Assembly: GCF_030269125.1 (NCBI RefSeq) | Contig: NZ_BSSM01000001.1 | Location: 868,001-932,000, forward strand | Length of the DNA: 64,000 nucleotides | Direction: 5' to 3' | Source: Streptomyces hygroscopicus subsp. hygroscopicus | GTDB lineage: Bacteria; Actinomycetota; Actinomycetes; Streptomycetales; Streptomycetaceae | Shown: one piece after another, positions 24,636-24,730 of the stretch | Layout: every line of letters starts with the position of its first letter | Position numbering within the stretch: position 1 is the first letter of the stretch | Notes under the pieces: model-generated | What the model was told of the DNA's origin: nothing | Databases searched by the model: none | What the model saw: the letters and a program-made list of their open reading frames with translations, nothing else | Program-made: the position numbers and the translations under genes

Positions 24636-24730
24636 GGAGAGGTGCCCGGAGTGGTTGATCGGGGACCGTGTGCACCGCACTGGTCGGGCCTGACCGGCCC
24701 ACGCAGGTTCGAATCCTGCCCTCTCCGCCA
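24636..24730 (+). tRNA. tRNA-Ser-like RNA gene with non-canonical anticodon arm (class II)
   Basis: 95 nt including encoded CCA. Acceptor stem GGAGAGG (24636-24642) pairs perfectly with CCTCTCC (24720-24726), then discriminator G and CCA. U8-like T and G follow. D stem CCCG/CGGG with loop GAGTGGTTGAT, keeping the GG pair. Variable arm GGGCC-TGACC-GGCCC (24686-24700) is a perfect 5-bp stem. T arm GCAGG-TTCGAAT-CCTGC is perfect. The anticodon arm (24664-24685) folds as GACC-GTG, loop TGCACCG, CAC-(T bulge)-GGTC, so U33 is G and position 37 is C; in the standard register the stem fails. All elements that SerRS reads are intact; decoding features are not. Its neighbours are the seryl transferase gene and the SARP gene. 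Confidence 0.8.

Follow-up and report, generated by a model that had tools for sequence, protein, structure and literature searches.

Seryl-tRNA synthetase (SerRS) recognizes the long variable arm of its tRNAs and does so without the anticodon. The allo-tRNAs are serine-type tRNAs with odd arm lengths, in this respect comparable to the element described here, and together with other noncanonical tRNAs they keep an anticodon and have been studied as decoding tRNAs. The nonproteinogenic tRNA-Gly species of Staphylococcus also keep the glycine anticodon. Neither "Streptomyces" nor "biosynthetic gene cluster" occurs in the available text of a review of noncanonical tRNAs (PMC7609411). In the valanimycin pathway, VlmA resembles the FemABX peptidyl transferases (PMC12945691), and VlmI is named as a SARP in the reference list of a review whose accessible text describes the diversion of Ser-tRNA from translation into valanimycin as unexplained (PMC4052509). 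The terms "anticodon," "tRNA gene," and "dedicated tRNA" are absent from the main text, as available, of a 2026 review of aminoacyl-tRNA-dependent biosynthesis (PMC12945691). We found no description of a tRNA family such as the one reported below in the literature searched; subscription papers and preprints lie mostly outside its coverage, so novelty is unproven.

A tRNA-Ser-like gene in an azoxy-type cluster

The window, by which we mean the whole 64,000-nt stretch of DNA that was analyzed, contains a gene cluster that its predicted proteins identify as azoxy type, with a VlmA-type transferase, a VlmB-like protein, and a VlmO-like protein (Table 1). The cluster also holds a ketosynthase and a permease. 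Relatives of the VlmO-type protein go by the names DUF4260 family or integral membrane protein, in agreement with what the available part of PMC9379638 says of the VlmO family. A first-pass annotation of this DNA had described a nondecoding tRNA-Ser-like gene within an azoxy cluster that carries a second SerRS and a seryl-tRNA-dependent transferase. Both enzymes are indeed encoded there, the VlmB-like and VlmO-type proteins agree with the azoxy identity, and the tRNA-like element was found exactly where it had been placed, with its acceptor stem, G73, CCA, D-arm GG, and T arm all present. The VlmA gene, which is transcribed divergently, flanks it on one side and the SARP gene on the other.

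TABLE 1 Coordinates of the tRNA-like element, its surroundings, and the cluster genes in the window
Feature	Position	Strand	Details
Class III aminotransferase	9933..11228	+	Cluster gene
VlmO-type (DUF4260-like) membrane protein	11735..12268	+	Relatives named DUF4260 family or integral membrane protein; VlmO via available text of PMC9379638
VlmB-like protein	12810..13790	+	93% identical to proteins named VlmB-like
Second seryl-tRNA synthetase	17901..19178	+	Low-scoring tRNA-binding arm; domain search
VlmA-type seryl-tRNA-dependent transferase (PF09924)	23452..24459	-	Divergent from the tRNA; start codon chosen by eye
SARP-type box (candidate site)	24553..24579	+	Three GTCAG repeats, 11-bp spacing, exact; motif match
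Rest of conserved upstream cassette (CTGCCA..GTGAACGG)	24580..24635	+	Conservation; probable core promoter and leader
tRNA-Ser-like gene, predicted nondecoding	24636..24730	+	95 nt; acceptor 24636-24642/24720-24726, G73 24727, CCA 24728-24730
D arm	24645..24663	+	4-bp stem CCCG/CGGG, 11-nt loop with GG
Anticodon-arm hairpin (22 nt)	24664..24685	+	Predicted fold without a 7-nt anticodon loop; outer helix GACC/GGTC covaries
Long variable arm	24686..24700	+	15 nt, GGGCC-TGACC-GGCCC; class II, Ser type
T arm	24703..24719	+	GCAGG-TTCGAAT-CCTGC, A51-U63 pair; from sequence
Putative terminator	24893..24924	+	GC-rich 13-bp hairpin between tRNA and SARP gene; by eye
SARP regulator (Trans_reg_C + BTAD)	25010..25807	+	Domain search; adjoins the element
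Second GTCAG x3 box	25830..25856	+	One mismatch; upstream of carboxyltransferase gene 25952-27496
Acyl-CoA dehydrogenase-type protein	28827..29960		Gene in the window

Several other gene groups can be recognized in the window. An amino-acid permease, an ornithine carbamoyltransferase, and an arginine deiminase are adjacent at 38110-42189 and form an arginine deiminase pathway unit, a methylmalonyl-CoA mutase and a MeaB-type GTPase lie at 54457-57646, and the segment 34265-36559 encodes a fusion of an FAD-binding monooxygenase part with an NADH:flavin oxidoreductase part.

Structure of the element and its anticodon arm

The element combines the features of an elongator tRNA-Ser: an acceptor of 7 bp followed by G73, a TTCRA T arm, GG in the D loop, and a long variable arm; its CCA end is encoded in the gene. 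It is the sole gene that ARAGORN called in the window. The program labels it tRNA-Ala(TGC), in our view because it misreads the abnormal anticodon arm, and it mislabels or misses many other copies of the family. In a permissive Rfam scan of 261 bases only, the element scored 29.8 bits against RF00005 (gathering cutoff, 29) in an alignment that skips the anticodon arm; an Rfam scan of the whole window at the gathering cutoff returned no entries. The cloverleaf fold of the plus strand has a predicted energy of -49.2 kcal/mol (z = -2.84), and 1 of 200 shuffled sequences was equally stable.

The anticodon hairpin of the window copy has a 3-nt loop in its minimum-energy fold, and the variable arm follows directly. 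It had been proposed that U33 is replaced by G and that position 37 is C. This holds in one register; more exactly, the arm has no standard 5-bp stem closing a 7-nt loop with U33. We folded the anticodon hairpins of 105 distinct copies of the family and found terminal loops of 3 nt in 19, 4 nt in 63, 5 nt in 21, and 6 and 7 nt in 1 copy each, so that loops of 3 to 5 nt account for 103 of the 105; UUCG or GNRA tetraloops occur in 29. A canonical frame of a 5-bp stem and a 7-nt loop with at least four pairs is feasible in 26 copies. Of these, 8 have U33, the window copy not being one of them, and 3 would have a serine anticodon. The housekeeping tRNA-Ser genes of the same genome have a 7-nt loop in three of four cases, and the fourth (GGA) folds with an extended stem and a 3-nt loop. 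Because of this last case, the fold alone is not our argument. The argument for loss of the anticodon is that, across the modeled folds, the loop appears free in both size and sequence and the helix beneath it is kept.

Conservation and covariation across the family

Early counts of invariant positions relied on a search pattern that fixes the acceptor and T-arm letters, and they were redone on matches to a covariance model. These number 109 in 95 sources, 97 of them distinct, and include matches in L022 and L047 that span runs of N and a match in L014 cut at a contig end. The matches are free of the fixed-letter pattern, but copies found with it went into building the model, whose structure biases the alignment. 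Across the family there is hardly any variation in the acceptor stem, D arm, T arm, or G73, with U8 and the A51-U63 pair in 109 of 109 matches and G73 in 108 of the 108 complete ones. A separate count by pattern found U63 in 118 of 118 distinct copies. The exception at position 51 lies outside the 109-match set, where 1 of the 15 copies of genome G006 reads G51. In three loci from Salinispora and Microbispora (L054, L057, and L065), an extra base stands between the T stem and the T loop (GCAG-C/T-GTTCGAAT).

The first-pass annotation had suggested examining stem covariation in homologous clusters, and there the stems are both conserved and covarying. Missing stem conservation, which it had listed as a refuting outcome, did not hold in the related loci compared. 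Among 59 copies found by pattern, two-sided changes occur in all four outer anticodon-arm pairs, in two of three variable-arm pairs, and in two of four D-stem pairs, and 0 of 500 shuffles reached the observed values. In the 109 model matches, 98.7% of cells are paired and 56 two-sided changes are spread over 10 pairs; the covariation score was reached by 0 of 500 shuffles, and the value for a further measure, the number of further pair types, by 3 of 500. All four outer anticodon-arm pairs covary in this set as well. The acceptor stem changes from G7-C66 to A7-U66 in 6 sequences, and the T stem changes from C50-G64 to U50-A64 in 1.

Occurrence relative to VlmA-type genes and second SerRSs

A scan of genome contigs for VlmA-type proteins yielded 66 loci, and the element was sought in their 10-kb flanks. 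Apart from the window, 52 of the 66 carry it, in one to five copies per locus, and the same 52 were recovered by nhmmer and by the covariance model. Within 45 of these loci it stands no farther than about 0.7 kb upstream of the VlmA gene on the opposite strand, and in L040, L045, L059, L060, L061, L062, and L064 it is 2 to 9 kb from that gene. Among the genomes of the 14 loci that lack the element, 10 have copies elsewhere according to the whole-genome pattern, and the model added 2 more, one with 11 copies at 89 bits or above and one with a single copy at 75 bits. In seven close relatives, with VlmA proteins 89 to 96% identical, the element was not found at the cluster locus (L004, L008, L009, L011, L021, L053, and L056), and each of their genomes has copies elsewhere. 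The genomes behind L019 (VlmA identity, 84%) and L041 (73%) gave background only in the whole-genome model search, in which family members score at least 71 bits and everything else at most 51.5 bits; two background matches inspected by eye resemble an ordinary tRNA-Ser(TGA) and a tRNA-Tyr. Overall, the comparison strongly supports a conserved, nondecoding tRNA-Ser-like gene tied to azoxy clusters, with 52 of 66 VlmA loci positive and 12 of the 14 remaining genomes carrying it elsewhere. Copy number ranges from 1 to 15 per genome, with tandem arrays of up to 5. Streptomyces coeruleorubidus, which carries the cluster, is a low-copy strain in which the pattern finds three copies in tandem. Upstream of VlmA in L021 (Streptomyces griseofuscus), only a short remnant of the element is visible by eye, and the pattern finds 15 copies elsewhere in that genome.

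We searched 343 Streptomyces genomes, sampled evenly across the genus, for the element (cutoff, E = 1e-8), for VlmA (1e-45), and for the second SerRS (1e-90). The element is present in 41 and a VlmA-type gene in 69 of the 343. It occurs in 40 of the 69 VlmA-positive genomes versus 1 of the 274 VlmA-negative genomes (Fisher p = 3e-32, with shared descent ignored). In the single exception, G184, the VlmA-like gene shows 34% identity and falls just under the cutoff (E = 4.8e-42 in a 20-kb stretch), and SARP and aminotransferase genes lie a few kilobases from the element. A VlmA-like gene is thus present in all 41 element genomes; in 40 it reaches the preset cutoff and in one it narrowly misses it. 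With the stricter pattern, 31 of 31 element genomes have VlmA, and the element is found in all 23 genomes of the genus sample whose VlmA is at least 66% identical. The best match in every positive genome of this sample scores at least 71.3 bits, and further matches at 61.8 and 65.5 bits fall in genomes already positive. The 29 of 69 VlmA-positive genomes without the element, 16 of them with VlmA at 56 to 59% identity, imply that VlmA-type enzymes are able to function in its absence, or else draw on the common pool or on a different amino acid. A class-wide sample of 271 genomes, overlapping the genus sample, contained 6 VlmA-positive genomes and 2 real element genomes, both among the VlmA-positive ones; a model match in G594 (61.4 bits, E = 2e-9) was dropped, as ARAGORN reads it as an ordinary tRNA-Ser(TGA).

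A second SerRS was found in 50 genomes of the genus sample, including 23 of the 41 element genomes. The other 18 of 41 have no match at E = 1e-90, and among the 27 genomes with a second SerRS and no VlmA match, only G184 has the element. For these reasons we rejected a tie between the element and the second SerRS and conclude that the element goes with the transferase. Here the comparison departs from the first-pass annotation: the element does not depend on a cluster SerRS, and the 18 genomes indicate that a dedicated charging enzyme is not general. The second SerRSs of the 27 VlmA-negative genomes form a separate group, 57 to 62% identical to the SerRS of the window, and perhaps serve self-resistance or other pathways. 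In two loci, L198 (from G184) and L199 (from G316), the element lies near a SARP gene, an aminotransferase gene, and a VlmA-like gene of only 34 to 36% identity, and the 20 kb around them gave no matches to the VlmB, VlmO, or SerRS of the window. Possibly another pathway employs the same kind of tRNA there.

Copies across the genome and a GTCAG-repeat cassette

The element had been described as part of the azoxy cluster, and this picture had to be widened: a pattern search of the genome that carries the window gave 9 copies and the model gave 10, of which 9 lie outside the cluster, and confinement to the cluster was rejected accordingly. The tenth copy (C26) has a mismatched first acceptor pair. 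In nearly all pairwise comparisons, the copies share at most about 190 nt, a stretch that begins roughly 90 nt upstream and extends through the tRNA, and beyond this cassette their flanks are mostly unrelated. The open reading frames beside the eight dispersed copies that we inspected look unrelated.

Each of the ten copies is preceded by a box of three GTCAG repeats. Allowing at most one mismatch, such boxes occur at 18 places in the genome. The ten copies account for 10 of these, of which 7 are exact, and a reversed control motif gave 0. Of the other eight places, four are at a divergent promoter by a putative type I polyketide synthase (PKS) gene, one is at position 25830 of the window, one is 3 kb to the left of the window, and two are at further sites. 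Across all loci, 81 of 93 promoter-proximal copies have a box scoring at least 13 of 15 letters, compared with 0 of 1,860 shuffles, and 12 of 93 score below 13. In 57 of the 81 box-bearing copies, the first repeat begins 80 to 87 nt ahead of the tRNA. Box scores do not exceed 11 in the 26 copies that lie downstream within tandem arrays. According to the available text of PMC7040171, a SARP site consists of heptamer repeats separated by 4 bp, and the consensus for the SARP PapR2 is GTCAGSS. The sequence upstream of the tRNA-like gene has such direct repeats in the promoter with an 11-bp period, and because the GTCAG boxes match both the PapR2 consensus and the described spacing, control of the tRNA-like copies by the cluster SARP is likely on motif grounds. 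At G000:C1:417364-417742 (L150 and L152), overlapping and divergent GTCAG x3 boxes stand beside the gene that by eye resembles a type I polyketide synthase; the same or a similar SARP may control another cluster there.

T-stem pair 51-63 and the SerRS arm

All four housekeeping tRNA-Ser genes found in this genome have G51-C63, and the element has A51-U63 in its place. In the accessible text of PMC4052509, the exchange of G51-C63 for A51-U63 is a named element of weak EF-Tu binding in those Staphylococcus aureus tRNA-Gly isoacceptors that have a presumed cell wall role. By analogy, the element probably binds EF-Tu weakly.

Domain scores were compared for 10 second SerRSs from the 50 genomes, 5 of azoxy type including that of the window and 5 from genomes without a VlmA match, and for one housekeeping SerRS. 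The N-terminal tRNA-binding domain (Pfam) scores 28.1, 23.8, 33.3, 21.3, and 32.2 bits in the five azoxy SerRSs, 60.7 to 64.0 bits in the other five, and 85.7 bits in the housekeeping enzyme, with cores at 111 to 135 bits. Among themselves, the azoxy SerRSs are 40 to 70% identical in the arm versus 73 to 86% in the core, and the other second SerRSs are 70 to 91% versus 83 to 94%, so the arm evolves faster in both groups. Both are about equally far from the housekeeping arm (29 to 35% identity for the azoxy SerRSs and 31 to 34% for the others). Since the arm of the other group is also fast evolving and equally distant, the comparison is consistent with, and not proof of, an azoxy SerRS arm suited to a special tRNA.

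Alternative explanations

Two readings would keep the element close to ordinary tRNA genes. A degraded duplicate of a housekeeping tRNA-Ser gene would share its class II body, and the general features do match the tRNA-Ser genes of the same genome. However, the four housekeeping genes align with the element only in a gapped and partial fashion, and, as far as this comparison reaches, the degraded housekeeping tRNA named earlier as a refuting outcome did not hold. With covarying stems and loci conserved in Streptomyces, Kitasatospora, Actinacidiphila, Streptantibioticus, Salinispora, Microbispora, Sphaerisporangium, and Rhodococcus, as well as an element kept in Actinokineospora genomes, we rejected this origin and give it almost no credence. 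The idea that the tRNA still decodes, reading certain codons through an unusual anticodon arm while the antibiotic is being produced, could draw on the 26 copies in which at least four of five pairs fit around a 7-nt loop and on the 8 with U33. The loop sequence nonetheless varies widely from genome to genome, the 3 serine anticodons in such a frame are about what chance predicts (26 x 6/64), and the 3- to 5-nt loops prevail in the predicted folds. On the survey of 105 distinct copies, this reading was also rejected, and it is highly improbable.

Other readings accept a nondecoding RNA and dispute its use. A charged or uncharged tRNA mimic might bind SerRS, VlmA, or another protein and tune the pathway or sense serine, without being a catalytic donor. 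An anticodon hairpin that is free to vary would suit an RNA whose body is bound by protein. Such a regulator would also fit the 45 of 52 loci in which the element stands on the strand opposite VlmA and at most about 0.7 kb upstream of it, as well as the tracking of VlmA, not of SerRS. However, an RNA that works through its 3' end would be expected to keep its acceptor stem, T arm, and G73 nearly constant, as this family does; genomes with as many as 15 copies, and arrays of as many as 5, point to supply more than to sensing; and the eight inspected dispersed copies adjoin unrelated reading frames. We regard regulation as an unlikely role. Less plausible still, and quite improbable in our view, is a self-spreading mobile repeat or integration site of tRNA origin whose link to azoxy genomes is one of descent only. 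Ten dispersed copies that have a cassette of about 190 nt in common amid unrelated flanks, and a copy number of 1 to 15, are what such a repeat would produce. Against it, the family is missing from 273 of 274 genomes of the same genus without a VlmA match, its stems show compensatory changes, and the repeat box is kept upstream, in 57 of the 81 box-bearing copies at a distance of 80 to 87 nt.

Proposed role of the tRNA-Ser-like family

We are quite confident in a role as seryl carrier. The element is one of ten copies, in this genome, of a tRNA-Ser-like family whose predicted folds lack a normal anticodon loop. A SARP probably controls its transcription, and it probably accepts serine, which it would supply to the VlmA-type transferase in azoxy biosynthesis and not to the ribosome. 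During antibiotic production, the cluster SARP would in this scheme activate the biosynthetic genes and the tRNA copies at the same time. Serylation through the long variable arm, for which the anticodon is unneeded, would fall to the cluster SerRS or, in genomes that have no second enzyme, to the housekeeping SerRS. Weak EF-Tu binding and the missing anticodon would keep the Ser-tRNA out of translation, and VlmA would hand the seryl group to a hydroxylamine intermediate. More broadly, it seems reasonably likely that actinobacteria run a second, private aminoacyl-tRNA supply: tRNA genes without an anticodon, spread over the genome and switched together by a SARP, whose products carry serine from SerRS to a biosynthetic transferase and go unseen by EF-Tu and the ribosome.

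If true, evolution would here have freed a tRNA family from decoding altogether, one made up of natural tRNA genes that keep the features read by SerRS and have been placed in an antibiotic regulon. The family offers a concrete and testable answer to the question of how Ser-tRNA is diverted from translation, and would then be the piece missing from accounts of azoxy antibiotic synthesis. It may also provide an orthogonal tRNA/SerRS pair for engineering. The element is in addition a genomic marker, as among the 343 Streptomyces genomes it marks only those with a VlmA-like gene.

Comparison with known systems

The pseudo-tRNA tRNAOther of Bacillus cereus resembles the element in being a tRNA-like gene said to be nontranslational, with effects on the cell wall and resistance (PMC3399842). 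It differs in flanking a genomic island, and a tie to a biosynthetic transferase is not stated in the available text of that source (PMC3399842). The VlmL/VlmA pathway of valanimycin shares with our cluster the transferase family, proteins of the VlmB and VlmO types, and a second SerRS, whereas a dedicated tRNA is not mentioned in the available texts (PMC9379638, PMC11705231, PMC12945691, PMC4052509). A functional parallel is the tRNA-Gly of the Staphylococcus peptidoglycan bridge, a tRNA believed to be reserved for a nonribosomal aminoacyl transferase and also bearing A51-U63 for G51-C63 (PMC4052509). Those tRNAs are described in the accessible text as lacking GG at positions 18 and 19 (PMC4052509), whereas the element keeps it, and the element differs further in having no anticodon loop, in its multiple copies, and in its link to a SARP-type box and a specialized metabolite. 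By analogy, the element would work like the nonproteinogenic tRNA-Gly of staphylococci, yet it is not a member of that family, because its anticodon is lost and GG at 18 and 19 is kept.
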